Part shown: positions 2,320-64,000 of the stretch, in pieces
Numbering within the stretch: the stretch's first letter is position 1
How the letters are laid out: each line of letters opens with the position of its first letter
Virus record (IMG/VR): IMGVR_UViG_3300031251_000017
Location: 1 to 64,000 of that record
Length of the DNA stretch: 64,000 nt
Direction: 5' to 3' (one strand)
From: a virus
The notes under the pieces: model-generated
Seen by the model: the letters and a program-made list of their open reading frames with translations, nothing else
Told to the model about the DNA's origin: nothing
Database searches by the model: none
Made by a program: the position numbers and the translations under genes

Positions 2320-4008
2320 ATGTGGGACACCTCCTGCCTCGATTGGCAGCGTCGGATTCTCGAAGGCGAGTCGCTTGTCCCGAAGCTCCCGCTCTTTAAG
2401 GACGAAGCCGGGCGCGCGCTGCGCGTCTTCAAGCGTATGCACATGCCCGATGTTATCGGGACGCCGAGGAACGAAGACGCGGCTGGCCCTTGGCTGTTCC
2501 CGATCGTCGAAGCCATCTTCGGCTCTTACGATCCTTCGACGAACCGTCGAGAGATTTCCGAATTCTTCGTGCTTGTCCCGAAGAAGAACGGCAAGACCTC
2601 GACGAGCGCGGCGATCATGGTCGCAGCGCTGATCTTGAACCGTCGCCCACAAGGCGAATTCGTTCTCGTCGCACCGACAAAAGAGATCGCCGATATATCG
2701 TTCAATCAAGCGGCCGGGATTATCCGCTGCGACCCGGAATTGCAGAAGCTGTTCCACTTGCAGCAACACGTTCGACAGATCAAACACCGCCGAACCGGCG
2801 CGACGCTCAAAGTCAAAGCGGCAGACACGGACGTTATCACCGGCGGAAAGCAAGTCGGAACCTTAATCGACGAGCTGCATGTCCTCGGCGCGAAGAAGAA
2901 CGCCTCGCAAGTCCTTCTGGAGCTGCGCGGATCGCTCGCCGCGCGCCCCGATGGTTTCTTGATAACGATCACGACGCAATCGAAGGAACCGCCGCAGGGC
3001 GTCTTTAAGACAGAACTTGCGAAGGCTCGCGCGGTGCGCGACGGCGAAATGAAATTGCCGCTCTTGCCGGTCCTTTACGAACTGCCGCCCGAGATCGCAA
3101 AAGACAACGGGTGGAAGAACCCGAACATCTGGCACCTGATCAATCCGAACCTCGGACGATCGGTCGATGTCGCGTTCCTTGAGCGAGAAGTTCAGACCGC
3201 CGAGACGCAAGGCAAAGAGCAACTGGCGCTGATCGCGTCGCAGCACTTTAACGTCGAAGTCGGTCTATCGCTCCACATGGATCGATGGGGCGGCACGGAC
3301 TTTTGGGAAGACGCAACCGAGCCGGGCCTCTCGCTCGAAGACATTATGTCGCGTTGCGACGTAGTGACGTGCGGCGTGGACGGCGGCGGTAATGATGACC
3401 TTTACGGCTTCTGCGTGATCGGCCGCGAGCGAAGCACGGAAGACGTTCGCTTCCGCCGCTGGCTCGTCTGGAACCACACTTGGGTCTCGAAGGCCGGCGC
3501 CGACAAGCGGAAGTCGGAGAACGCGAAATATGCCGACTTCGTGAAGGCCGGCGAATTGACGATCGTCGATAACCTCGATGAGGCCGAGATCGCAATCGCG
3601 GACATTGTGGAGCGGCTCGATCGAGAGGGTCTTCTTCCCGACGACGCGATCGGGATCGACCAGATCGGGACGAAAATCCTGACCGACAAGCTCGAATGTA
3701 TCGGGATCGGCAAGGAACGCCTCGCGGCGGTTCAGCAAGGGTTCCGAATGAACGGCGTCATCATCGACGTTGAGCGCCGACTCGAAAGCAAGACGCTGAT
3801 TCACGGCGGTCAAGCGATTATGGCGTGGGCGGTCGGGAACGCGAAGGTCGAAACGCGGGGGAACGCGGTCCTGATAACGAAACAGATCAGCGGCCGCGCG
3901 AAAATCGACCCGCTTATGGCTCTACTCGATGCCGCGACCCTTATGGGCAACCACCCCGAAGCGACCGGGCGGTCGTTTTGGGACACCGACGAGGAAATCA
4001 CGGCATGA
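2320..4008 (+). CDS. terL: Terminase large subunit
   Basis: A 562-residue packaging motor, the usual length for the HK97-type TerL family. The ATPase domain shows the atypical Walker A VPKKNGKTS (86-94) and Walker B LIDELH (181-186). The C-terminal RNase H-like nuclease starts with CGVDGGGNDDLYGF (350-363; D353 is a likely metal ligand) and has further acidic residues near GIDQIGT. It pumps DNA into proheads and cuts it at the ends of packaging. The stop overlaps the portal start by 4 nt. Confidence 0.95.
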   Translation: MWDTSCLDWQRRILEGESLVPKLPLFKDEAGRALRVFKRMHMPDVIGTPRNEDAAGPWLFPIVEAIFGSYDPSTNRREISEFFVLVPKKNGKTSTSAAIMVAALILNRRPQGEFVLVAPTKEIADISFNQAAGIIRCDPELQKLFHLQQHVRQIKHRRTGATLKVKAADTDVITGGKQVGTLIDELHVLGAKKNASQVLLELRGSLAARPDGFLITITTQSKEPPQGVFKTELAKARAVRDGEMKLPLLPVLYELPPEIAKDNGWKNPNIWHLINPNLGRSVDVAFLEREVQTAETQGKEQLALIASQHFNVEVGLSLHMDRWGGTDFWEDATEPGLSLEDIMSRCDVVTCGVDGGGNDDLYGFCVIGRERSTEDVRFRRWLVWNHTWVSKAGADKRKSENAKYADFVKAGELTIVDNLDEAEIAIADIVERLDREGLLPDDAIGIDQIGTKILTDKLECIGIGKERLAAVQQGFRMNGVIIDVERRLESKTLIHGGQAIMAWAVGNAKVETRGNAVLITKQISGRAKIDPLMALLDAATLMGNHPEATGRSFWDTDEEITA

Positions 4009-5468
4009 GTCTTTTTTCGTGGTTGAAAGGCTCTCCGAAAGCCGCGCCGGCGCCCGAGCCGCAGGTCTCGCAGCCGCAGAACATGGTCTTCGAGGAAGCC
4101 TTTTGGCGCGATCTCGCCATCGGGGCGAAGACAACGGCCGGCGAGACGGTAAGCTGGACGACATCGCTCTCGAATCCGGCCGCGCTTCGTTGCGGTCTCG
4201 TCATTGCGGACGGCATTTCGACGGTTCCGCTCAAATTGATGCGGAAAGACCCAAAGACCGGGCGTCGATCGGAAGCGACCGATCATCCGCTCTACTGGCT
4301 TTTTGCGCGCGCGCCGTCGCCGTTCCAGAACTCGCAAGAATTCCGCGAGTCGATGGCGCTGCATTGCGTCTTTACCGGGAACGCCTATGCGTTCATCAAC
4401 CGAGTCGGCGGGAAGGTTCGGGAGCTTCTCCTGATCCCGCCTCACGCCGTTTCTGTTGAGCAGAAGGCCGACTATTCGGTCGTCTATTCGGTGACGGGGA
4501 TCGACGGCAAGGTCGAGGAATTCCCGGCCGAAACGATTTGGCATCTTCGCGGGCCTTCGTGGAACGGTTTTACCGGTATCGACACGATCTTCCATCTTCG
4601 GAACGCGATTGGACTCGCGATGGCGACCGAGCGCGCGCACGCCGCGCGCTTTGTTAACGGAATCCAGACGACCGGCGTTTATACGGTGAAGACGCGCCTC
4701 GACGATGCTGGCTATAAGCGCCTCGCGGCGTGGGTAAAGTCGCATTTCATCGGCGGGGCGAACTCCGGCAAGCCGATCATCCTCGATAACGACGCGAGCT
4801 TCTCGCCGACAGATATGACCGGAGTCGACGCCGAGCATGTTGCGACGCGCGAGCATCAGATCGAGGAAATCTGCACCGGCTTTGGCGTTAAGCCGATTAT
4901 GATCGGCCACGCCGACAAGTCAGCGACCTATGCGTCGGCCGAACAGATGTTCTTGGCTCACGCGGTCCATACGATTCGCCCTTGGCACCGGAGGATCGAG
5001 AACTCGCTCGAAGCCGCGCTTCTCTCGATCGACGAGGCGAAGCAGGGTTATTATTTTAAGTTCTTCGACACCGAACTCCTTCGCACCGACGCGACGACGC
5101 GCGCGACCTATCTCCGACAGATGGTCGAGATCGGCCTCACGCCGAACCAAGTCTGCGAATTCGAGGATATGGACGGATTCCCCGAGGGCGACGTTCACTT
5201 CCGCCCGGCGAACCTTGTCCCGATCACGAAGGAAACGAACAACCCGCCCGCACCGGCCGCAAAGCCGGCTGCGGACCCGAACGCGCCGCCGGAAAGCCAG
5301 CCGGCTTCGCCCGATCAGACGGCCGCGAACGTCTTCCGCGTCAACGTTGGTCGAATCCTCTCTGCGCACAACGAAAACCTGATCCGCGACGCTTCCGGCA
5401 AGCTCTCCGAAGTCTTGTCGAAGCTCGACGCGCAGCAACCAGAAGAACCCGACGAGGGGGCGCAATGA
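4005..5468 (+). CDS. Portal protein (HK97 family)
   Basis: A 487-residue portal subunit that would form the dodecameric DNA gate at one capsid vertex. The start chosen is the ATG overlapping the terminase stop (MSLFSWLKGS), because upstream in-frame codons lie inside the terminase gene. Family features seen: AALRCGLVIADGISTVPLKL near residue 55, HPLYWLFARAP, IWHLRG and GFGVKPIMIG. The C-terminal ~80 residues are rich in Pro and Ala, then helical. The stop overlaps the protease gene by 4 nt. Confidence 0.92.
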   Translation: MSLFSWLKGSPKAAPAPEPQVSQPQNMVFEEAFWRDLAIGAKTTAGETVSWTTSLSNPAALRCGLVIADGISTVPLKLMRKDPKTGRRSEATDHPLYWLFARAPSPFQNSQEFRESMALHCVFTGNAYAFINRVGGKVRELLLIPPHAVSVEQKADYSVVYSVTGIDGKVEEFPAETIWHLRGPSWNGFTGIDTIFHLRNAIGLAMATERAHAARFVNGIQTTGVYTVKTRLDDAGYKRLAAWVKSHFIGGANSGKPIILDNDASFSPTDMTGVDAEHVATREHQIEEICTGFGVKPIMIGHADKSATYASAEQMFLAHAVHTIRPWHRRIENSLEAALLSIDEAKQGYYFKFFDTELLRTDATTRATYLRQMVEIGLTPNQVCEFEDMDGFPEGDVHFRPANLVPITKETNNPPAPAAKPAADPNAPPESQPASPDQTAANVFRVNVGRILSAHNENLIRDASGKLSEVLSKLDAQQPEEPDEGAQ

Positions 5469-7688: not shown

Positions 7689-8117
7689 ATGGCCTTCCGC
7701 GATCTTCACCACAATATCCATGTCGCGCGCGGCATTTCGCCCGCCGCCGCGACGACCGACAACACCGCGTGGGTGTCGCAGATCGTCGACACGCAGGGTT
7801 ACGACTCGGTCGAGTTCCTCGCGCTGATCGGCAATCTCGCCGACGCCGATGCGACCTTCGCGGTCCTCGTCGAAGACGGCAACGCTGCGAACCTCTCGGA
7901 CGCCGCGACTGTCGCCTCGAAGTTCCTTCTCGGCGGCACCGCGAACGCGAATTTCGTCTTCTCTGACGACGATAAGGTTCGCAAGATCGGCTATATCGGC
8001 GACAAGCGTTATGTTCGCGTGACGATCACCCCCGCGAACAACACCGGCAACGCCTTTGTGGCCGGCGTGTGGGTGCTTGGCCATCCCCGCTCGATGCCGA
8101 CCCCGAACGTCCCGTAA
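7689..8117 (+). CDS. Putative head decoration or auxiliary head protein
   Basis: A 142-residue protein of unrecognised family. It starts at an ATG preceded by AAGGAG at 7675-7680 and lies between two terminator-like hairpins directly after the capsid gene. The sequence is beta-rich, with alternating hydrophobics, no Cys and a Pro-rich C-terminus (HPRSMPTPNVP). Position, compactness and its own strong ribosome-binding site suggest an abundant capsid-surface protein, but that is an inference from context. Confidence 0.5.
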   Translation: MAFRDLHHNIHVARGISPAAATTDNTAWVSQIVDTQGYDSVEFLALIGNLADADATFAVLVEDGNAANLSDAATVASKFLLGGTANANFVFSDDDKVRKIGYIGDKRYVRVTITPANNTGNAFVAGVWVLGHPRSMPTPNVP

Positions 8118-35297: not shown

Positions 35298-35597
35298 CTA
35301 GCCCCTCCACCAACTCGGCAAGATGCTTGTGGACCCCCTCGGTTTCTCGACCGGGATCGCCCTGACGACGCTTTCCTTGCGCTGGCGCTCGGCCCATTCC
35401 TCGTGCTTCTTGTTCCACTCGGCGACCTTTTTGGCGAACTCGGTCGGCCCGATCCCGGCGAGGATCATCGTCTGGAGCGCCGCTTCGACTTCGAGGGGTG
35501 TTCCCTGATAGCCGGAGGATATTCGCGGGCCGACAAAGACCCAATGCCGGCGAAGGTCGTCGCGGGCGTCTTTCAACTGCTCAACCGTCCACTTCAT
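35298..35597 (-). CDS. Hypothetical protein downstream of integrase
   Basis: A 99-residue protein coupled to the integrase (ATGA overlap at 35594-35597). It begins MKWTVEQLKDARDDLRRH and continues with a helical segment (GPTEFAKKVAEWNKKHEEW). It has no HTH typical of an excisionase. The coupling suggests a role in integration or lysogeny, but none can be assigned. Confidence 0.55.
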   Translation of the reverse strand: MKWTVEQLKDARDDLRRHWVFVGPRISSGYQGTPLEVEAALQTMILAGIGPTEFAKKVAEWNKKHEEWAERQRKESVVRAIPVEKPRGSTSILPSWWRG

Positions 35598-36664
35598 AGT
35601 TCCGTCTCCTTCCACCAATCCCCCGCCCACTTGTCGCCCGTTTGGCGAATGTGGGTGTAGCGTTTCAAAGATTTCCAATCGCGATGTCCCGAGACCGTTG
35701 CAACGTGCGGGATGTTCCAGCCGAGTTCGAATAGCCGGCTGATCCCTTCGTGGCGCAAGTCGTGGAAGTGGAGGTCTTCGATCCCGAGGATCGCGCAAGC
35801 GCGTGCCCACGCCGAGCTAATCGAGCCGGCGGTGTAGGGGAAGATTTCCTTCTCGACGCGCGGCATCGAATTGATGATCTCGACCGCTTCCGGCGGGAGG
35901 TCGACGCGGACATCGTTCCCGGCCTTGTCTCCGGGGTTCTTCATGTCTCGGACGATAACCCGATCGAGATCGAGGTCGGCCCATTCGATCCGTGTTATTT
36001 CCTCCTGCCGCCGGGTCGAATAGAGGGCGAAGGGGATAATCCTGTGCATCGGGATCGTCGATGGCCGGCGCCGGGTCCGGTCCCGGAAGAACGCCATCAG
36101 GCGCTCGACTTCCTCGACGGTCGGCCGGCGTTCCCTCTCCCTGCCCTTGGCGGTCAGCCCGAGGCGCTTCGTCACCTTGGCGGCGTCTTGCATAGCGGAC
36201 GGGTCGAGAGGTAGCCCCCACGCCGCCCTAGCCAGCGAGAAGACGGCCCCGAGGTGCGATAGATAGTTCGCGACCGTTGCAGGCGATCGGCCCTTGCTCA
36301 TGGATTGCGCGAAGGCGACGAGATCGGGGCTTCCTATCTCGCCGCAGGGGAGAGCGGCGATCGGGTGACGCTTGATCGCTTCGAGGCATTGCGCCTTAGT
36401 CTTCCCCATCGCCTTCCGGGAGTCGGCGATATATCGGTCGATTGCGTCGGCCAGCGTCGCGCCCCTAACGGCGCGCCGGGCGATCTCGATCCCGGTCTTC
36501 TCGATCTCGGCGTTCCGCTTCTCGATCCAGACGGCGGCGGCTTGCTTCCGATCGAAGGTCTTCGTCTCCCGGAAGGCGAGCTTCCCGCCTTCTCGAATTA
36601 GAACATCGGCCCGATAAGCCGTTGTGCCATCTTTGCGCTTCCGCGCTATGATTCTTCCGCCCAT
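35594..36664 (-). CDS. int: Tyrosine-recombinase integrase
   Basis: A 356-residue integrase. The start MGGRIIARKRKDG is chosen because the upstream in-frame extension runs through repeat-rich non-coding DNA. The N-terminal part is an AP2-like arm-binding domain, then a SAM-like core-binding domain (~65-160). Catalytic motifs: arginine in FALYSTRRQEEITRIEW, HDLRHEG, SGHRDW and the nucleophile in LKRYTHIR. It would integrate the phage at a host att site, so the phage is temperate. It has a coupled downstream gene. Confidence 0.93.
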   Translation of the reverse strand: MGGRIIARKRKDGTTAYRADVLIREGGKLAFRETKTFDRKQAAAVWIEKRNAEIEKTGIEIARRAVRGATLADAIDRYIADSRKAMGKTKAQCLEAIKRHPIAALPCGEIGSPDLVAFAQSMSKGRSPATVANYLSHLGAVFSLARAAWGLPLDPSAMQDAAKVTKRLGLTAKGRERERRPTVEEVERLMAFFRDRTRRRPSTIPMHRIIPFALYSTRRQEEITRIEWADLDLDRVIVRDMKNPGDKAGNDVRVDLPPEAVEIINSMPRVEKEIFPYTAGSISSAWARACAILGIEDLHFHDLRHEGISRLFELGWNIPHVATVSGHRDWKSLKRYTHIRQTGDKWAGDWWKETEL

Positions 36665-36940
36665 CGGCCCATCCTTTGTTGCGCCACGGCGGGGCGGAAC
36701 TTGCGCCAATGGAGCAGTATTGGCAAGGAATAGCCACCAAAGACCCGGAAAGGCCGGGAATTCGACAAGGGATGGAGAGGCGCAAGTGGTTGGCATCGAA
36801 GGAAAAACCTTACAGGCCAGTGACATACGTTTCTGCGTCGCCCCTATGATGGAGGGGAAGGACAAAAACGAGCAGCCCCAGATAATTCAATCGCTTGAAA
36901 AACAGCGCCGGGGCTATGGCGCAAGGAATGGCGCAAGCGA
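36665..36940. other. Non-coding region with repeated TTGCGCC/GGCGCAA heptamers (attP candidate)
   Basis: No gene is seen between the integrase and the PrtN-like gene. The heptamer TTGCGCC or its complement occurs five times: 36679-36685, 36701-36707, 36779-36785, 36918-36924 and 36930-36936. The last two belong to a direct repeat of ATGGCGCAAG. Repeated short sites next to an integrase gene are typical of arm-type binding sites in attP. The core crossover site cannot be picked out. Confidence 0.45.
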
Positions 36941-37997: not shown

Positions 37998-38904
37998 TGT
38001 CGACTCCCTTGAGCGCGGCGAGTTCGCGCTCTGCCTTCCTCGCCCTTTCCAGATAGCGATTATTCGCTTCGAGCAATTCGTTCACGCGGCGCTCTTGATG
38101 ATCGACAAGCATCGCGACCCCTCCCCCGGCGCGCGCCATATCCTTCTTGAGCGCGGCGAGTTCCTTCTTTGCTTCGTCGCGCTCATGCTCGGCGCGATAG
38201 GCGCGCGCCATAAAATCAGCGGACCCCTCGGTCCATAGCGCGAGTCGCTTCTCGGCTTCCTCGGCCCGGCGAAGATGCCGCGAAGCTGCTTCGTTCATCA
38301 GCTTCGCGTTATCGACAGCCGCGTCGCGCTCGGCCTTTATGGTCTCGACGACCACTTCGACCATCTCGATCTTCTTCCCGGCTTCATCGTCGATGCGACG
38401 CCATTCCTCGACTTCGGCGCGGAGGGTGTCGCGCTCGGCTTCGGCCTTCTGGCGCGCTATGCCTAAATTCCTAATGTCGCGTATGTCAGCCTCACGCGCC
38501 TCGAATTGTATTCTGGCTTCTTCCCTCTCGGCGGCGAGTTCGGCGCAGGCTTTGTCTGCGCGTTCTTTCTCTATTTGCCAGTGGCATTGAAACTCGGCGT
38601 GCTGGCTGCGTTCATAATCCGCGTCGCTCTTGGCGGCGGCGAGTTCGGCGCGGGCCTCATGAAGGATTGCTTCAATAGACGCAAAGTCACCCTGCGCCTT
38701 GGCGAGTTCGGCGCTGGCCTTGATCGCCTCGTCTTTCATCGCCTCGTATTGCGACTGCCAGTTTTTATTGCCGATCCGAAGGGCGCCGATTTCACTCGCC
38801 GCCTTCCGAAGCAACCACCCGAGAGTAACGCGCGCTTCGTGAACGCGCTGGTGTTCCGCGCCGCTCTCGGTCACGAGTTCAAGAAGGACATCGACCTCAG
38901 GCAT
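37990..38904 (-). CDS. Long coiled-coil protein
   Basis: A 304-residue, almost entirely helical protein with many heptad-like blocks (AELAAAKSDADYE, ERDTLRAEVEEW, KKELAALKKDM). It shares the ELAA repeat style with the next gene, so the two may have arisen by duplication or form hetero-coils. It overlaps the ParB-like gene by 8 nt. No enzymatic motif seen. Confidence 0.6.
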   Translation of the reverse strand: MPEVDVLLELVTESGAEHQRVHEARVTLGWLLRKAASEIGALRIGNKNWQSQYEAMKDEAIKASAELAKAQGDFASIEAILHEARAELAAAKSDADYERSQHAEFQCHWQIEKERADKACAELAAEREEARIQFEAREADIRDIRNLGIARQKAEAERDTLRAEVEEWRRIDDEAGKKIEMVEVVVETIKAERDAAVDNAKLMNEAASRHLRRAEEAEKRLALWTEGSADFMARAYRAEHERDEAKKELAALKKDMARAGGGVAMLVDHQERRVNELLEANNRYLERARKAERELAALKGVDNE

Positions 38905-40675
38905 CGTAAGTCTCCTTATAAGACGCGATGACGATCTTCTCGCCGCGAAGCTGCGGGGGAAGCCAGCCGTGAACGGCGGCGGCGGTAGCAGAGAACAGGG
39001 CGAGGTCGCCCTTCTTCGAGGGCCGGGGCTTCTTGTCGACCCCCATCTCGTCGAGCGCCGCGTGGCAGAGATCGGCCTTCACCGCCTTGAAGTAATGCGT
39101 GGCGTCGAAGACCTCGCGGGAAGCTCTTTCGAGTTCGGCGGGATCGAGCGCGCGCAGGAGCGCGGCTCGCACGTCCTTCGTGCAGAACCCGGTCCGAAGG
39201 TCGAGGCTCTGAGCGATCAATTCCGCAAGCCGCTCGCCGGCCTCGACCGGACCCTCGGGGGATTGAGCGAGGATCGTCTCGAAGCGATCGGTCGGCCCCT
39301 CGCCGAGTCCCGGCGCTCCGTTCGATCTGATCTTCGCCGGGGTGTCGCCGTAGGACTCAAGGGTGGCGATCAAGACGCTGACGGCGAGAGCCGGGTCTTT
39401 CCGCAGGGTGAGATACGCCGCCTTCGTCAACTGCTCGGACAGGGCAAGCTCAAGAGCCGCGCTGATCTTCTCGGAAGGCGCTGCGCTACTATCCTCCATC
39501 CCTTCTTCTTCCGGCTCTCCAGCGGCCGGTTTGCCGGCCGTGGCGGAGGCTTTCGCGGTCTTCGGGTCGAGGACGCCGCGCTCGATGACGATCTTCCCAT
39601 CCCAGTCAACCGAGACGAAGCACCCCGACTTCGCCCTCTCGGCCGGCTTCCAGCGCCGGGCGTCGATCGCAGCCTCGATTTCCTGCTTCCTCTCGACGAG
39701 CGCCTCGATCTCGGCATCGTCCTCGGCGCCGAACGGGTCTTCGCTGTCCTCCGGGGAGAGGACGGCGATCCGTTCCTCGATCTTCTTGTGTTCCGCTCGC
39801 TCGGACGGCGACGGGTTCCGCTTCCCGGTCTGAGGAAGCCGAGGCCAGTTCCACGGGGATTGCACCGAGTCCTTCGTAACAGCGAATGACCAGCCGTCCG
39901 CGATCAGGTCGGCGCAAGTCTTTTCGAGCTTCTCGGCGAGAAGACGCTTCGCGAGATCGGGATCAGAGAGAACATTCTCGTCTCCGAATAGGTCTTCGAT
40001 GATCGACCCGCCGGCCGCGAGATAGGCTTCGAGGCCGATCGCCTCGAAAGCCCGGTTCGCGTCGTGATCGAAGCCGAGCGCCGCCTTTACATCGTGAGGA
40101 TAGACGCCGCCCTTCTTGGCGAGCTTGTCGAAGACTTCTTTCTGAACTTCTTGGTTCGGGGCGATCGTAAAGGCTTTCGCCGTCTCGTCGCTGATCTGTA
40201 GGTTCCGCCACGCCTCGCGAATATCCGGGTGGAGCTTTCCGAGGGCGAGTGCCGCCTTCACCTCTTTCTCGGTCTTGCCGAACCTTTCCGCTATGTCCCT
40301 CGGCGCGAGGCTTGATGTCAAAGCCGCATAAGCCTCGAATTCGTCGATCGGGTGAAGGCCCTCGCGCTGAACGTTGGCGACGAGCGAAAGCTCGCGGGCT
40401 TCGTCGTCTGTAGCGTCCGCGTAGACGATCGCCTTTGTAACGTCGATGGGGAGTTCTACTCCCTCTTTCTCATGGAGGAAGCGGATCGCGGCGAGGCGTC
40501 GATTGCCGTCGATCACTTCTGCTTTCCCGTCTTCCCGGAGCCGAACAATGATCGGCTGCAAGAGGCCGTGCGCTTTGATCGAAGCCGCGAGCGACTCGAT
40601 CCCGATGTCGCGATCGGTCTTGCGGCAGTTGATGTCCTCCCGCGTCAAGAGGTCTGTTAGATTAAGCGTCGTCAT
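38897..40675 (-). CDS. Large ParB-like protein
   Basis: A 592-residue protein. Residues ~1-110 are a ParB N-terminal domain (GLLQPIIVRLREDGKAEVIDGNRR, then LSLVANVQREGLHPIDEFEAY as landmarks) and ~110-190 contain the ParB HTH (APRDIAERFGKTEKEVKAAL). The C-terminal ~400 residues are longer than in chromosomal ParB and include acidic and Ala-rich parts. No ParA gene is visible, so a role in gene regulation, host takeover or DNA processing is as likely as partition. AAAAAGGA precedes the start. Confidence 0.82.
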   Translation of the reverse strand: MTTLNLTDLLTREDINCRKTDRDIGIESLAASIKAHGLLQPIIVRLREDGKAEVIDGNRRLAAIRFLHEKEGVELPIDVTKAIVYADATDDEARELSLVANVQREGLHPIDEFEAYAALTSSLAPRDIAERFGKTEKEVKAALALGKLHPDIREAWRNLQISDETAKAFTIAPNQEVQKEVFDKLAKKGGVYPHDVKAALGFDHDANRAFEAIGLEAYLAAGGSIIEDLFGDENVLSDPDLAKRLLAEKLEKTCADLIADGWSFAVTKDSVQSPWNWPRLPQTGKRNPSPSERAEHKKIEERIAVLSPEDSEDPFGAEDDAEIEALVERKQEIEAAIDARRWKPAERAKSGCFVSVDWDGKIVIERGVLDPKTAKASATAGKPAAGEPEEEGMEDSSAAPSEKISAALELALSEQLTKAAYLTLRKDPALAVSVLIATLESYGDTPAKIRSNGAPGLGEGPTDRFETILAQSPEGPVEAGERLAELIAQSLDLRTGFCTKDVRAALLRALDPAELERASREVFDATHYFKAVKADLCHAALDEMGVDKKPRPSKKGDLALFSATAAAVHGWLPPQLRGEKIVIASYKETYDA

Positions 40676-58458: not shown

Positions 58459-59130
58459 ATGAGCAAATCTGACAGGCTTCGCCAGCGTCTTGTCACGATC
58501 GGGGAGGCGACGGCCTTCCTCGGAAATCGTGGAAAATCAGCGACTCCTCGGAGAGCGCCCGACAATCTGACAAGCCTAGAGTCAGAAGCGGCGACATATA
58601 TGTCAGAAAGCGCGGGCCGCTTCTCGGACGAACGGTCGGCCCGGTTGATCGCGAACGCCGCGCTCGGTTCGGTCGTCGCCGAGTGGTCGAAGGAACTGGT
58701 GCGCCAGCGCCTCAAGGAAGCGGCGCGCGGGGGCGAAAGGATCACAGGCCGGGTCGGGCCTTCCTCGAAGCTCGGGTTCTGGCCCGAGGTCGCGCTGTTC
58801 GCCGACATAACCGCCGCCGATCGCAACATCATCTATCAGGCGGAACTAGACGGGACGCGCGCCCCGGCGCGCCCCTCGGGCGTCGGCGGCGATCGAGACG
58901 TTTCGCAGATTGAGGCGTCGATCTACTGGCCGGCGCTTTACCTCAAGGCGGAAGAACACGACGCGGCGCGCCGCGCTCTCCAATGTTGGGGATGGTGCGA
59001 GGCGCGCCGGCAATCGTTCTCAGGTCAATATCGGGAACTCGGCTGCTCGCTCCGAACGGCGAACCGCAGGGTCGACGAGGCGATCGAGACGATCCTCGCC
59101 GGCCTTATCCGTGACGGCGTGGATCCATAA
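58459..59130 (+). CDS. Hypothetical protein at the end of the replication operon
   Basis: A 223-residue protein. N-terminal polar region, then helical segments (LVRQRLKEAARGGERITGR, ASIYWPALYLKAEEHDAARR) and a C-terminal HTH-like part (GQYRELGCSLRTANRRVDEA). Similar proteins (DUF6362-like) close the replication operon in other phages, but the match is uncertain. It is convergent with the next gene and overlaps it by 26 nt. Confidence 0.5.
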   Translation: MSKSDRLRQRLVTIGEATAFLGNRGKSATPRRAPDNLTSLESEAATYMSESAGRFSDERSARLIANAALGSVVAEWSKELVRQRLKEAARGGERITGRVGPSSKLGFWPEVALFADITAADRNIIYQAELDGTRAPARPSGVGGDRDVSQIEASIYWPALYLKAEEHDAARRALQCWGWCEARRQSFSGQYRELGCSLRTANRRVDEAIETILAGLIRDGVDP

Positions 59131-59344
59131 GATCGAGTTCCTCGATAATCCTCCCGAGGTTCCCTCCGAGCCGCTCGCACAAGGCGATCAGTTCGGGCAC
59201 GATCGAGACAGGAATCGGCGCTGTCCCGTTCAACCATCGCCGGATCGTTCTCTCGGCGACGTTGAGGTCGACCTCGAAGTCGGCCGATCCCCACCGGGGT
59301 CCATAGAGGGTCTCGCCGATTCTCTTGAGAAGCTCCGGGGTCAT
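59105..59344 (-). CDS. Small HTH regulator
   Basis: A 79-residue protein with an HTH (DLNVAERTIRRWLNGTAPIP, residues ~26-45). It ends the leftward accessory array and overlaps the convergent rightward gene by 26 nt. Probably a local transcriptional regulator. Confidence 0.65.
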   Translation of the reverse strand: MTPELLKRIGETLYGPRWGSADFEVDLNVAERTIRRWLNGTAPIPVSIVPELIALCERLGGNLGRIIEELDLMDPRRHG

Positions 59345-60459: not shown

Positions 60460-60744
60460 TTAGATGTGGCGAAGCGATCCGCCGCCGACGCCGAAATCGC
60501 GCATACGAACGAAGTCGGGTTTCCCGGATCGAGCGGCGGCGTCGGGGTTGAGGGGATAAGCGTCCCATCTCCCGAGCCGCTCGATCGAGTCGGGATTAAC
60601 CTTGACGTTCGTTCCGGTTCGATCGCGCTCGATCGCGATAATCGTCCCGGCTACCCATCCGGCCGATCCGGCGTAAACCTCAACACGCTCGCCGACCCGG
60701 TAGATCGACCCATCGTAAAAGTGAACCTCGTCTTGCTTCGTCAT
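60460..60744 (-). CDS. Hypothetical protein with SH3-like start
   Basis: A 94-residue protein. Residues ~5-50 (EVHFYDGSIYRVGERVEVY, GWVAGTIIAIERDR) look like an SH3-like beta barrel. The start is preceded by the SAS-like element at 60747-60759. Confidence 0.5.
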   Translation of the reverse strand: MTKQDEVHFYDGSIYRVGERVEVYAGSAGWVAGTIIAIERDRTGTNVKVNPDSIERLGRWDAYPLNPDAAARSGKPDFVRMRDFGVGGGSLRHI

Positions 60745-60746
60745 AA

Positions 60747-60788
60747 GGGCCTCCTGCCCGGTTGAGGGCCGGGGCCGAAGCCCCGGCC
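60747..60788 (-). promoter_or_regulatory. SAS-like leader (hairpin plus enclosed RBS)
   Basis: Minus strand: hairpin GGCCGGGGC-TTCG-GCCCCGGCC (60788 to 60767), then GGGCAGGAGGCCC (60759 to 60747), TT and the ATG. The SD core AGGAG lies between GGGC and GCCC. Confidence 0.75.
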
Positions 60789-60794
60789 GGTGGA

Positions 60795-61040
60795 TTAGCG
60801 CCAGCGGGTCGCGGTCTTTATCTCGACTTCGAGGCCGTCGATCATCTTCTCGACCTCGCGCTCGACCTTCGAGTCGATCTCGTCGTCGAGGCCGGCGATC
60901 TCGCCTTCGAGTCTTTCGACCTTCGCGGAGAGTTCCTCGATCTTCTCGATCGCGATCTTGAGGTCATGCGCGCGGACGGCGACGATCTTTTCGAGATCGA
61001 CGAGACGGCGAGCGGTAGAGGGGAAAAAGAACTTGAACAT
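60795..61040 (-). CDS. Small coiled-coil protein
   Basis: An 81-residue protein with a hydrophobic/basic start (MFKFFFPSTARRL) and a long coiled coil (EKIEELSAKVERLEGEIAGL as landmark) to the end. The start is preceded by the SAS-like element at 61047-61059. Confidence 0.6.
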   Translation of the reverse strand: MFKFFFPSTARRLVDLEKIVAVRAHDLKIAIEKIEELSAKVERLEGEIAGLDDEIDSKVEREVEKMIDGLEVEIKTATRWR

Positions 61041-61046
61041 TTGCGT

Positions 61047-61089
61047 GGGCCTCCTGCCCGGTGTTGAGGGGGAGGGCCATCCCTCCCCC
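61047..61089 (-). promoter_or_regulatory. SAS-like leader (hairpin plus enclosed RBS)
   Basis: Minus strand: GGGGGAGGG-ATGG-CCCTCCCCC stem (61089 to 61068), then GGGCAGGAGGCCC (61059 to 61047), then ACGCAA and ATG. Confidence 0.75.
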
Positions 61090-61096
61090 GGTTGAG

Positions 61097-61246
61097 TTAG
61101 ACGAGGACGCCGATCAGAAGCCACGAATGGGTGGTCTCGGCCTGCCCGTGATAAGCCGGGCCGGTGACGAAGCCGATCGCGTCGGCTTGCGAGGCGAGCC
61201 AATCGGAGAACGGGACGAAGACGGCTTTCGTTGCGAAGAAGTTCAT
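61097..61246 (-). CDS. Small hypothetical protein (49 aa)
   Basis: A 49-residue ORF (MNFFATKAVFVPFSDWLASQ) with a SAS-like ribosome-binding element 6 nt upstream and its own promoter-like sequence. The C-terminus is hydrophobic (SWLLIGVLV). The leader is the main evidence for translation. Confidence 0.6.
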   Translation of the reverse strand: MNFFATKAVFVPFSDWLASQADAIGFVTGPAYHGQAETTHSWLLIGVLV

Positions 61247-61252
61247 GGTCTA

Positions 61253-61293
61253 GGGCCTCCTGCCCGGTTTCGCGCCGGACCTCTTGCCCGGCG
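61253..61293 (-). promoter_or_regulatory. SAS-like leader
   Basis: Minus strand: CGCCGG stem (61293 to 61288 with 61278 to 61273), containing GGGCAAGAGGTCC-like sequence, then GGGCAGGAGGCCC (61265 to 61253), TAGACC and ATG. The stem therefore carries a second, decayed copy of the motif. Confidence 0.7.
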
Positions 61294-61302
61294 ACGAAGA
61301 CG

Positions 61303-61331
61303 ATTAAACCGTGGAATTCGGAAAACAGCAA
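61303..61331 (-). promoter_or_regulatory. Sigma-70-like promoter (TTGCTG-N17-TTTAAT)
   Basis: TTGCTG (61331 to 61326), 17 nt, TTTAAT (61308 to 61303), located just after the previous stop and followed by the SAS-like leader. Confidence 0.65.
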
Positions 61332-61340
61332 GCGCCGATT

Positions 61341-61601
61341 TCAGTCGTCGAATTCCTCGATGAAGTGGCGGGCGTCGTCGAGCGATTCGAGGATCGGCGC
61401 GGTCGGCTCGCCCTTCGGGGTGAAGACGAAGAAAGGCCCCTCGAAGCAGCCGTAAGCGCCGACTCGGGGCTTGTCCGAGTTCACGATCTTGAAGCCCCGA
61501 TAATCGAGCGAGTCGATCGCGCCGGCTACGCGCGCGGCTTTGATGAACTTCGCCCACCGAGGGATTCGGGTCCGGTGTCCGTTGAAGTCTTTGATTGCCA
61601 T
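61341..61601 (-). CDS. Small hypothetical protein
   Basis: An 86-residue protein (MAIKDFNGHRTRIPRW). The middle is beta-like with aromatics (YGCFEGPFFVFTPKGEP). It is preceded by a variant SAS-like element at 61609-61623. Confidence 0.55.
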   Translation of the reverse strand: MAIKDFNGHRTRIPRWAKFIKAARVAGAIDSLDYRGFKIVNSDKPRVGAYGCFEGPFFVFTPKGEPTAPILESLDDARHFIEEFDD

Positions 61602-61608
61602 TTTAAGC

Positions 61609-61623
61609 GGGCCTCCATTGCCC
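61609..61623 (-). promoter_or_regulatory. SAS-like element, variant
   Basis: GGGCAATGGAGGCCC (61623 to 61609): the same flanks with a 2-nt insertion before GGAGG. A short GGGA/TCCC inverted repeat lies upstream. Confidence 0.65.
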
Positions 61624-61660
61624 GGTTGAGCGGAGCGGGACGATCCCACCCCGAATTCGT

Positions 61661-62068
61661 TTAGCAGCCGTAGGGTTCGCGATATTCGATCCGAACGAAG
61701 AAGCGATCTTCGCGCTCGACAACTTCCCAAGGATAGCCGAGCGATTGCGACTCGGCCCACTCGCGCGCCGCGACTTCGGTCGCGAAGCCGGTCTCGCCGC
61801 GATATTCGCGCTTGACGAGGACCGGGCAGAACCGCTTCGGGCGAGCGCCGCCGATATAGCGGGCCGTTACGATCTCGAAGCCCATCGAGCGGAAGTCGCG
61901 ATCGTCGAGGCGCGAGACGTTGCGGAAGCCGGCCTCGATTAGCGCCTTGCGCGCGTCGCCGACCGTAGCGCCGACGATCTTGCGACCCTCGGCCGTTTCG
62001 TAAATTCCGCCGTTCCAGCGATCGGCGTGGATCGCGGCGACGAGCTTCTCGGCGATTTGTCTATCCAT
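61661..62068 (-). CDS. Hypothetical accessory protein
   Basis: A 135-residue protein (MDRQIAEKLVAAIHADRWN). A basic alpha/beta region includes VGATVGDARKALIEAGFRN and FATEVAAREWAESQSLGYP. It has an ordinary ribosome-binding site (GGGGAAAG) instead of the SAS-like leader, since it directly follows the 71-residue gene and is probably co-transcribed. Confidence 0.55.
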   Translation of the reverse strand: MDRQIAEKLVAAIHADRWNGGIYETAEGRKIVGATVGDARKALIEAGFRNVSRLDDRDFRSMGFEIVTARYIGGARPKRFCPVLVKREYRGETGFATEVAAREWAESQSLGYPWEVVEREDRFFVRIEYREPYGC

Positions 62069-62079
62069 CTTCTTTCCCC

Positions 62080-62295
62080 TTAGCCTTCGTGCTTCGTGAT
62101 GATAACGGAGTCGAGGCCGAGGACCGGGCGACCGTTGAAGTGGAGTCGGGTCTCGCCGATGTCTTGAAGCTCATACTCGATCTTCCCGAAGGCATCCCGG
62201 TGGCGGCAAAACAGGGCGCCGACGATCGCGAGCGGCGCGATCATGACGAGGTTCCCGTCCTTAGATTTTACTTCGTAAAGGGTCGGCTTTTTCAT
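62080..62295 (-). CDS. Small hypothetical protein
   Basis: A 71-residue protein (MKKPTLYEVKSKDGNLVM) with a hydrophobic stretch (VMIAPLAIVGALFC) and C-terminal beta strands. The start is set by the SAS-like element 6 nt upstream. Confidence 0.55.
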   Translation of the reverse strand: MKKPTLYEVKSKDGNLVMIAPLAIVGALFCRHRDAFGKIEYELQDIGETRLHFNGRPVLGLDSVIITKHEG

Positions 62296-62301
62296 CTTCG
62301 T

Positions 62302-62341
62302 GGGCCTCCTGCCCGGTTCGCGACGGGCCGTTGCCCGTCGC
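62302..62341 (-). promoter_or_regulatory. SAS-like leader (hairpin plus enclosed RBS)
   Basis: Minus strand: GCGACGGGC-AACG-GCCCGTCGC (62341 to 62320), then GGGCAGGAGGCCC (62314 to 62302), ACGAAG and ATG. Confidence 0.75.
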
Positions 62342-62348
62342 AAGAGAG

Positions 62349-62377
62349 ATTAGATAGTGAACCGGGAAAAACAGCAA
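62349..62377 (-). promoter_or_regulatory. Sigma-70-like promoter (TTGCTG-N17-TCTAAT)
   Basis: TTGCTG (62377 to 62372), 17 nt, TCTAAT (62354 to 62349), 9 nt after the previous stop. Confidence 0.7.
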
Positions 62378-62386
62378 CACCCCTGT

Positions 62387-63031
62387 TCATCCCCACGCGA
62401 GGCCGTAGCGTTCCGCGCATTGAGGGCCATAGCCTACCTGAGTCGATCTCTCGTCTTTCAGGCCCTTATTGCAGAAGCAGCAGCGGCCGGTCAGGCGACC
62501 GTGCTCGGCGGCGACCCCTGCGGGATCGGCGGCGAAGCGACGCAGGCCGTCGATCAATCCGGCCGGCGTATCGGCGCGGGGGGAAGCCTCGAAGTCGCCC
62601 GAGGCAAGGATGCGACCGAACCAGACCGGCTCGTCTCCCTCGGCGGCACGACGCGATTCGGCGACGTTGAGCGATCCGGGAACGCGGGCGCGCTCGCTGG
62701 CAACCGATAGGCGATATTCGTCGCCGTCGAAGCCGATCACGATCGCCGGGGCCTTGAGGTGGGCGCGAGCCTTGTCGAAAAGAGCGGTGATCGCCGAGAG
62801 GTCGCCGACCGCCGTCTTCTTCCGCTCCGGGGCGGGCGTAGCAGCCCCCGTAGCGCGTTCGGCGAGCTTGACGAGGTAAGGGCGCTGCTTCTCGCTCGCC
62901 CGGCCGTAGCGGGTTACGCCGGCGACGAGAGAGGACGCGAAGGAACGATCGCGGTCGGCGAGTTTCTCGACGTTGGCGGCGAGGATCGCGGCGAGATCGG
63001 CGTCGGTCATGTTCTGAAAGTTCGTGTTCAT
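62387..63031 (-). CDS. Protein with C-terminal treble-clef zinc motif (DUF6011-like)
   Basis: A 214-residue protein. N-terminal helical part (TDADLAAILAANVEKLADRD, EKQRPYLVKLAERA), a central beta domain (IVIGFDGDEYRLSVAS, WFGRILASGDFEAS) and the C-terminal GRCCFCNKGLKDERS and VGYGPQCAERYGL, a zinc-binding unit of the DUF6011 type that is common in phage and plasmid proteins. Preceded by a SAS-like leader and promoter. Confidence 0.65.
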   Translation of the reverse strand: MNTNFQNMTDADLAAILAANVEKLADRDRSFASSLVAGVTRYGRASEKQRPYLVKLAERATGAATPAPERKKTAVGDLSAITALFDKARAHLKAPAIVIGFDGDEYRLSVASERARVPGSLNVAESRRAAEGDEPVWFGRILASGDFEASPRADTPAGLIDGLRRFAADPAGVAAEHGRLTGRCCFCNKGLKDERSTQVGYGPQCAERYGLAWG

Positions 63032-63037
63032 AGCGGC

Positions 63038-63050
63038 GGGCCTCCTGCCC
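63038..63050 (-). promoter_or_regulatory. SAS-like element
   Basis: GGGCAGGAGGCCC (63050 to 63038), then GCCGCT and ATG. A GC-rich stretch able to pair partly (GGGGGC/GCCCGCCCC, 63056-63080) lies upstream. Confidence 0.72.
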
Positions 63051-63086
63051 GGTTCGGGGGCCGGCCGATGCCCGCCCCACGCCCCT

Positions 63087-63114
63087 CTTATACGCCTGCC
63101 GCATAAAACAGCAA
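63087..63114 (-). promoter_or_regulatory. Sigma-70-like promoter (TTGCTG-N16-TATAAG)
   Basis: TTGCTG (63114 to 63109), 16 nt, TATAAG (63092 to 63087), 14 nt after the previous stop. Confidence 0.7.
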
Positions 63115-63128
63115 CACGAAATGCCGGA

Positions 63129-63326
63129 TCAGGCCCGGCGACCGATCTCGGCCTTGATCGCCCGAAGCGCGTTCTCCCGGATCGCCGACCGTTCCCAGAC
63201 GTTCGGGGTTGCGGTTGCGCGCCTCTCGGCCTCGTCGATTATCGCCTCGACCCGAGCGCATTTGACGGCTTGAGCGAGCCTCGGGTTCGCCTCGGGGGCT
63301 TTGATGTCTCGAAGGAAGCGGTTCAT
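63129..63326 (-). CDS. Small helical hypothetical protein
   Basis: A 65-residue protein (MNRFLRDIKAPEANPRLAQA), helical and basic. It uses a normal AAGGAGA site. No family recognised. Confidence 0.5.
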   Translation of the reverse strand: MNRFLRDIKAPEANPRLAQAVKCARVEAIIDEAERRATATPNVWERSAIRENALRAIKAEIGRRA

Positions 63327-63391
63327 CTCAAAATCTCCTTGTCTGCAATGGGCGGCGCGCCGCGAGACGAATCTCTCGCGACTCGCGGTTT

Positions 63392-63634
63392 TCAGCAAGC
63401 GTCGCAGTCATCATCCTCGGGTTTCGAGAACTCGAAGACGGTCTTCGATTCGAGCGCCCACCCCTGATCGTTCAAGAGCGAGAGGACTAGATCGGCGCTC
63501 GGCTTCGGCGTGACGCAGCGGTCGATGTAGTATTGAGCCAGCCCCATCTCGTCGGCCCATTGCCGGGCCTCCCGCAGGGTGCGGAAGGCTTTCCGGCCTT
63601 CGCCGTAGTCGGCGATCACTTGATAGACGATCAT
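63392..63634 (-). CDS. Small hypothetical protein
   Basis: An 80-residue protein (MIVYQVIADYGEGRKAFRTL) with an alpha/beta start (REARQWADEMGLAQYY) and an acidic Cys-containing end (EDDDCDAC). Start set by the variant SAS-like element upstream. Confidence 0.5.
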   Translation of the reverse strand: MIVYQVIADYGEGRKAFRTLREARQWADEMGLAQYYIDRCVTPKPSADLVLSLLNDQGWALESKTVFEFSKPEDDDCDAC

Positions 63635-63638
63635 CCTC

Positions 63639-63685
63639 GGGACTCCTTTGCCGGTTGAGAAGGGGAGGGCCTTAGCGCTCTCCCC
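63639..63685 (-). promoter_or_regulatory. SAS-like leader, variant
   Basis: Minus strand: GGGGAG/CTCCCC stem (63685 to 63680 with 63667 to 63662), then GGCAAAGGAGTCCC (63652 to 63639) ahead of the ATG at 63634. The flanks and SD core are altered together but can still pair in part. Confidence 0.6.
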
Positions 63686-63691
63686 GGTTGA

Positions 63692-64000
63692 TTAGGACGC
63701 GCTCGGATAGGTTTCCGGCTCGTAAACGATCGCGTTCAACTTATTGAACCGGCCCGAGCGGTCGTCGCGGCCGAAGTTCGCGGAAAGCCGACCCTCGACC
63801 GGGCGGAACATAACGCTCGCCTTCCAAGGGTTCTGGCTGGTGCGGTAGCGACCGACGAAGCCGATCAACGAAATGTCGCGACGGCCGGGCGAGAAGCTAT
63901 CGCGAACCCACCGACGAGCCTCGACGACAAGGCGACGGCCGCGAATCTCGATTTCGACGTTCCCGATCTCGACGAAGTAAATCGACGAGTCCGAATAAGA
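63692..64000 (-). CDS. Hypothetical protein, 5' end outside the window
   Basis: The last 102 residues of a leftward gene whose start lies beyond 64000. The visible part is beta-rich and basic (SIYFVEIGNVEIEIRGRRL, SVMFRPVEGRLSANFGRDD) and ends in YEPETYPSAS. It resembles small single-domain phage accessory proteins; no family recognised. Confidence 0.5.
   Translation of the reverse strand, partial: SYSDSSIYFVEIGNVEIEIRGRRLVVEARRWVRDSFSPGRRDISLIGFVGRYRTSQNPWKASVMFRPVEGRLSANFGRDDRSGRFNKLNAIVYEPETYPSAS

Follow-up and report, generated by a model that had tools for sequence, protein, structure and literature searches.

Among described phage elements, the closest to the one reported here is the start-associated sequence (SAS) of Cluster K mycobacteriophages, GGGATAGGAGCCC, which is present in 11-19 copies per genome near the start codons of the non-structural half (PMC3203893). 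About half of these copies have an upstream 17-bp inverted repeat, the extended SAS (ESAS; PMC3203893), which was later reported with putative SigA-like promoter hexamers and within which the Cluster K authors considered RNA pairing unsupported (PMC11373665). Microbacterium phages of Cluster EF carry ten copies of a comparable string, GGGAAAGGACCCC, with an upstream ESAS centred on GTAGAG (PMC7302621). What SAS does has been an open matter from 2011 (PMC3203893) onwards, and a paper of 2024 again describes its role as ill-defined (PMC11373665). Here, we analysed a 64,000-nt stretch of viral DNA (the window; positions 1 to 64,000 of IMG/VR record IMGVR_UViG_3300031251_000017), in which an earlier note, made from the letters alone, had described an SAS-like Shine-Dalgarno (SD) core within an inverted repeat ahead of at least seven genes. 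We find a leader made of two hairpins, H1 and H2, ahead of eight genes (A, B, C, D, F, G, I and J) and conclude that it is a real, so far uncatalogued translation-start element that recurs in dozens of other phages and some plasmids. Rfam release 15 gave no match above the gathering threshold in the window or in six loci of the family.

Six exact copies of the core, GGGCAGGAGGCCC, occur in the 66,335-bp phage contig (0.0103 expected on both strands), each before an ATG. Five of them lie on the minus strand where the earlier note had placed them; the sixth is located just past the window, in leader J. The two variants it had listed, GGGCAATGGAGGCCC (leader D) and GGCAAAGGAGTCCC (leader I), are likewise present, with longer SD loops than the exact cores, bringing the count to eight genes, with the neighbours E and H, which have a plain SD, as exceptions. 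Exact cores are spaced 2-6 nt from their start codons and the variants 7 and 4 nt, and all are found on the minus strand of the accessory region. The tetranucleotide AACC, described as nearly always preceding the core, stands directly 5' of 5/6 exact copies, leader B having ACACC instead. A GGG-N5..8-CCC frame within the last 25 nt was found at 0/36 control SD-bearing starts of the same genome. As in Cluster K SAS, we are thus dealing with a 13-nt string in which GGG and CCC surround AGGAG, repeated in one orientation a few nucleotides before non-structural starts; unlike SAS, GGGCAGGAGGCCC differs at more than two positions from both GGGATAGGAGCCC and GGGAAAGGACCCC, and the hosts differ.

From 5' to 3', the leader comprises a promoter or the preceding stop codon, H1, a short linker that often ends in ACC or ACT, the mini-hairpin H2 (usually a 4-bp stem with a 5-9-nt loop holding the SD), 2-10 nt and the start codon. 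H1 is a GC-rich hairpin upstream of the core in all eight leaders. Its arms differ from copy to copy, yet 62/64 inner positions pair (arms set by hand, bulges omitted), and when 3' arms were reassigned to 5' arms, only the true one of 40,320 assignments reached this value (mean 44.0, standard deviation 3.5). Against dinucleotide shuffles, H1 folded with z = -2.3 to -5.2, and upstream hairpins were stronger in the eight leaders than at 36 control SD-bearing starts (Mann-Whitney P=2.6e-5), 2/36 of which had an equally strong one. H1 is therefore kept by pairing, not by sequence, and is an RNA structure, in line with the varying stems that the earlier note had described. We rejected H1 as a DNA operator because every copy has other letters, and an intrinsic terminator for those H1 that lie in gaps between genes, as a U-run is absent after H1.

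This hairpin sets the leader apart from SAS. Only weak hairpins precede 10/14 SAS sites of the Cluster K phage Anaya, as opposed to a strong H1 in 8/8 leaders here, and a strong one is seen at only 2-3/8 sites of AnnaSerena (Cluster EF, actinobacterial host); since most of the upstream 40-mers of both phages fold weakly, the consistent H1 is the distinguishing feature of the present family. The ESAS combines a conserved promoter with a DNA inverted repeat (PMC11373665), while in H1 the sequence varies with pairing kept and the putative promoter is a separate element, TTGCTGTTTT. Hence, SAS stands as the nearest described system, and ESAS does not as the counterpart of H1. Some likeness to the Cluster K arrangement is nevertheless seen, in that part of the copies follow a promoter (in Cluster K, one with an inverted repeat) and in that other members of the leader family have a promoter palindrome. 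The Cluster EF layout, too, is the same. The strings are too short to tell descent from convergence.

Within this phage, the core is nearly invariant and holds little information on pairing in H2; other viruses provided it. Core-based scans of viral contigs returned the same layout, namely a promoter with a palindrome, TGTCCTAnnnTAGGACA, over its -10, followed by H1 (GGATGGGnnnnnCCCGCC) and the core, and in scans that fixed one flank or none, every promoter-bearing match had a flanked SD. The stems of many family members share a conserved bulge in H1, and the palindrome, found in many of them, is likely a DNA operator. Downstream of several family leaders lies a gene for a small helix-turn-helix (HTH) protein (GEALYGPRWQSELARDLKVSDRTVRRW), which this phage also encodes. 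Searching with this protein instead of the motif yielded 65 viral loci, many with a leader upstream of the HTH gene and not all with a recognisable one. The SD flanks at these loci read GGGC/GCCC, GGGC/GTCC, GGGT/ACCC, GGGT/ACCT, TGGC/GCCA, CGGC/GCCG and CGGG/CCCG.

Since MAFFT did not align the H2 variants by structure, pairing in H2 was assessed by permutation in Python. Among 13 distinct flank pairs, defined by hand, 49/52 positions paired versus 36.7 after permutation (0/20,000). Under a fixed rule, the longest stem enclosing GGA averaged 4.58 in 38 distinct leaders versus 3.73 (standard deviation 0.117; 0/5,000). Finally, the covariation score was 0.238 versus 0.104 in shuffled data (reached by 0/500 shuffles) and at most 0.100 in slid versions of the alignment (A6), which was fitted to the model and in which some TGGC-type rows are misplaced. 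The three counts, which are rough because some leaders were first found by motif and relatedness was left uncorrected, agree on selection for pairing: the mini-hairpin is kept by compensatory change, and the inverted repeat around the SD, as originally proposed, does pair.

We built a covariance model, R1, from 20 leaders, none of them from this phage; its E-values are rough. Run at full sensitivity over the window, R1 recovered the leaders of this phage, its top six matches being F, G, C, B, A and D (E=1.7e-6 to 0.0037). It also found five leaders each in the phages G408 (66.2 kb) and G409 (67.9 kb) and three in G410 (67.0 kb); one of the five G409 matches, at 41.8 kb, lies outside the array. 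The G408 array (60.6-63.9 kb) is on the minus strand, as in this phage, and includes homologues of E, G and the HTH protein, with a leader before the E homologue; G409 has homologues of G, H (weak) and the HTH protein, and G410 of the HTH protein. Cores in these arrays, CGGGA(A)AGGACCCG, are mostly CGGGAAGGACCCG or CGGGAAAGGACCCG, some with AGGG for CGGG, and some of those in G408 and G409 match 12/13 letters of the Cluster EF string; in G410, one leader has CGGGAGAGACCCG and one a plain SD. Loss of flanks and stems in relatives, which the earlier note had named as the mark of a mere duplicated start signal, is not what these arrays display: SD, flank pairing and stems are retained with other letters, also in the two phages that carry homologues of array genes.

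Two further start signals were noticed along the way. A 43-kb viral contig of 68% GC (G003; L170 13990-17220) has two such leaders, while several of its small genes are preceded by another repeated start signal, GAGGAGGCCT, and five contigs (L137, L149, L154, L157 and L164) share a start region with CCACCACCGGGCAAGGAGGCCCA before the ATG, in which the SD flanks pair.

The leader extends to plasmids. R1 matched a plasmid of Paraburkholderia kururiensis (E=1.5e-5) and, with one and the same leader, two conjugative plasmids of Xanthomonas translucens (E=0.004). An independent origin in an alphaproteobacterial phage, as entertained in the earlier note, was thus too narrow a reading, the leader being common to many phages and to beta- and gammaproteobacterial plasmids. 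Klebsiella plasmids that encode a distant HTH homologue (L318 and L319, ~2180-2275) carry GTACCTAAAATAAGGTAC, the hairpin GGGAAGGCTACGGAGCCGCCC and GCCTAAGGAGGC ahead of the first gene of the operon, with a palindrome across the -10, the hairpin itself and a mini-hairpin at the SD; of the 554 plasmid records in which the 91-bp stretch occurs, 521 are typed as conjugative. Because R1 does not detect this version, we regard it as a probable relative rather than a demonstrated one. At another locus (L016, ~3822-4300, reverse strand), a leader opens an operon for two proteins that, named by eye, resemble the toxin HigB and the antitoxin HigA; if this naming is right, the palindrome over the -10 is likely a HigA-type operator. 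On plasmids of Mesorhizobium and Sinorhizobium (L308 2501-2719 and L312 2501-2719), an HTH homologue lies directly 5' of an annotated anti-phage-associated DUF499 protein.

A motif-anchored scan of 257 Gb of genome contigs gave 60 matches, about chance level; most were intragenic or lacked hairpin and promoter. When 385 alphaproteobacterial genomes were searched with patterns anchored on the hairpin or the core, three matches and no convincing leader came up. With the leader as BLAST query, phage and plasmid collections gave chance-level matches, and the four plasmid matches examined were not leaders.

How the leaders are transcribed is suggested by an element absent from the earlier note. The contig as a whole contains four copies of TTGCTGTTTT and no more, each lying just upstream of a leader (J, G, F and C) and followed after 16-17 nt by a -10-like hexamer. 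These would be the promoters of the four leaders, and the spacing of the hexamer places the expected transcript start at or near the foot of H1. Leaders A, B, D and I are promoterless, with H1 starting a few nucleotides past the stop codon of the preceding gene. A tRNA-Met (CAT) gene lies on the plus strand just past the putative promoter of leader J (L013 1295-1371; contig 64295-64371, beyond the window).

H2 alone folds at about -5.7 kcal/mol, a predicted stability that would be enough to matter and that a ribosome could still overcome. When folding was confined to the probable transcript, the SD came out as largely unpaired (0.47-1.00), and in some leaders (I, L016 and L017) H2 is not the favoured pairing. 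With arbitrary windows, mean SD accessibility was 0.60 for leaders versus 0.39 for control genes (P=0.035). These modelled values fit SD presentation; context independence is not clearly supported by them.

What the element looks like, where it sits, that pairing is selected in both of its stems and that many phages and some plasmids carry it are observed. Beyond this, with a probability of roughly 70%, we read it as a structured 5' leader RNA that serves mobile genetic elements as a portable module and works at the initiation of translation. Its action is placed at this step because of where H2 lies and because its loop holds the SD. H1 would shield the 5' end and stop upstream sequence from folding onto the ribosome-binding site (RBS), H2 would present the SD in a loop that is autonomous and moderately stable (~ -6 kcal/mol), and loading of the 30S subunit would then be set by the leader cassette itself. 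The leader may act mainly by insulation, by intrinsic gating or through a trans-acting factor. The near-uniform core of each array phage would offer a common target to any factor that reads the loop, and co-regulation of accessory genes by the leader, also raised in the earlier note, would be plausible.

Several points weigh against this reading. With a loop of 5 nt, five SD pairs can probably not form unless the stem opens, so that H2 could lower translation instead. GC-rich hairpins also precede some coreless genes of this phage, and the H1 found in gaps may partly belong to something more general. SD accessibility varied more with the folded window in leaders than in controls (standard deviation 0.25 versus 0.09), which does not favour pure insulation, with the proviso that windows extending beyond the real 5' end are unrealistic. 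Lastly, leader I is weak, ranking as the eighth R1 match in the window (E=0.21).

Synthetic insulators of the RiboJ type employ a hairpin that shields the RBS from its upstream context. The leader shares with them a hairpin directly 5' of the RBS (PMC6206723), with the difference that RiboJ is synthetic and ribozyme-based, and that insulation is here a hypothesis for which the folding test gave no clear support. Natural RNA hairpins at an RBS, controlling translation of a phage gene, are found in T4-like phages, as in the mobE RBS hairpin and the gene 43 operator (cited in PMC3014915); those serve single genes, with the RBS sequestered in the case of mobE, whereas the present leader is repeated and holds its SD core in a loop. 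A site for T4 RegB was rejected, as the A-rich 3' side that its consensus calls for (PMC3014915) is absent here.

Could the leader instead govern mRNA stability or processing? H1 would then form a stem-loop at the 5' terminus of transcripts that start at a promoter and, in gaps, a site that is cleaved or that blocks decay, with the SD flanks merely keeping the RBS out of H1. Both placements of H1 described above, at the expected transcript start and shortly past a stop codon, agree with such a role, as do the similar hairpins in other gene gaps of this phage. Taken alone, it leaves the pairing and covariation of the SD flanks unexplained, and we consider it possible but doubtful.

In a further scenario, the leader is a translational operator: an RNA-binding protein of phage, plasmid or host, CsrA-like or other, would read the SD loop of H2, perhaps along with H1, and switch the whole gene set. 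CsrA binds GGA in hairpin loops over the SD, and here, too, GGA sits in a small hairpin loop over the SD, within a core that is nearly uniform in each array phage and below H1 stems that often share a conserved bulge. However, no linked RNA-binding protein was found, the linked HTH protein resembles a DNA-binding one, CsrA is encoded in only 8/58 sampled alphaproteobacterial genomes and in 0/4 array phages, and most cores here have C, not the A of the CsrA consensus, two bases before GGA; we therefore deem this scenario unlikely. Its broadest form, which we offer with similar reserve, is an RNA class shared by mobile elements over several proteobacterial classes, in which a dedicated factor reads the SD loop to form a translational regulon of accessory genes and of which actinobacterial SAS would be the same principle, whether by independent or common descent.

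Much less probable is an element acting as DNA, with H1 or the core as a protein-binding site (as proposed for ESAS), or an antitermination site at the RNA level, comparable to put of phage HK022. The palindrome over the -10 would suit the former; however, it is separate from H1, whose sequence is unconserved within this phage, and the unit is tied to SD and start codon also before genes without a promoter of their own. That a duplicated RBS simply spread from gene to gene by recombination, with functionless flanks and stems, would account for six identical cores before accessory genes and is nonetheless strongly contradicted by H1 arms that vary with pairing kept, by SD flanks that do likewise between phages and by arrays elsewhere that keep the architecture with a different core.

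The array itself consists of ten small minus-strand genes in succession (A-J) at the right end of the contig, ~60.4-64.1 kb (Table 1); DUF6011 in the product of G is the sole domain above cut-off among them. Terminase, portal, major head protein and tape measure identify a tailed phage, which is probably temperate and has a phage integrase at 35594-36865; a ParB-like protein of 592 aa (minus strand, window 38897-40675) adjoins the integrase region. The nearest relatives of the terminase (51%) are those of Agrobacterium phage Rivra and Labrenzia phage vB_LagS-V1, which makes an alphaproteobacterial host likely, not proved. Relatives by helicase (L108-L116, 77-40% identity) lack the array, six of them having also been scanned with R1 (one weak match, G012); the array is therefore an accessory module. 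Strong GC-rich hairpins are seen in other gene gaps, at window positions 7689, 26672, 31530 and 51313, some with a short T run and with coreless starts.

Table 1 Coordinates of the array genes and of the parts of their leaders (window positions unless given as contig coordinates).
Feature	Position	Strand	Remarks
HTH protein	59105..59344	-	Leader-linked in many other phages
Gene A	60460..60744	-	94 aa; no family above cut-off
Leader A core (H2), GGGCAGGAGGCCC	60747..60759	-	2 nt before ATG; R1 match 60742-60791, E=0.0027
Leader A H1	60767..60788	-	C(UUCG)G loop; gap after gene B
Gene B	60795..61040	-	81 aa
Leader B core (H2)	61047..61059	-	R1 E=0.0014
Leader B H1	61068..61089	-	Gap after gene C
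Gene C	61097..61246	-	49 aa
Leader C core (H2)	61253..61265	-	R1 E=4.8e-4
Leader C H1	61273..61293	-	
Leader C putative promoter	61303..61331	-	TTGCTGTTTT ... TTTAAT
Gene D	61341..61601	-	86 aa
Leader D core variant, GGGCAATGGAGGCCC	61609..61623	-	Stem unchanged, loop +2 nt; R1 E=0.0037
Leader D H1	61631..61653	-	Gap after gene E
Gene E	61661..62068	-	135 aa; leaderless here, homologue in G408 with leader
Gene F	62080..62295	-	71 aa
Leader F core (H2)	62302..62314	-	R1 E=1.7e-6
Leader F H1	62318..62343	-	
Leader F putative promoter	62349..62377	-	TTGCTGTTTT ... TCTAAT
Gene G	62387..63031	-	214 aa; DUF6011, Pfam PF19474 E=1.1e-12
Leader G core (H2)	63038..63050	-	R1 E=9.4e-5
Leader G H1	63057..63078	-	One G.G mismatch
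Leader G putative promoter	63087..63114	-	TTGCTGTTTT ... TATAAG
Gene H	63129..63326	-	65 aa; upstream hairpin, plain SD, no core
Gene I	63392..63634	-	80 aa
Leader I core variant, GGCAAAGGAGTCCC	63639..63652	-	Weakest member; R1 E=0.21
Leader I H1	63662..63685	-	Gap after gene J
Gene J	63692..64000 in window (63692-64054 in contig)	-	120 aa; window end cuts gene
Leader J core	64059-64071, contig coordinates	-	R1 match in L013, E=3e-4
Leader J H1	64077-64101, contig coordinates	-	
Leader J putative promoter	64104-64136, contig coordinates	-	

SAS sites hardly vary within their phage group, and pairing of the GGG and CCC flanks is consequently not visible there. The present leader varies enough to reveal it, turning the puzzle of a conserved string into a testable RNA structure. 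It also allows accessory operons to be sought in phages and plasmids by their start signals, and may represent a natural counterpart of synthetic RBS insulators.

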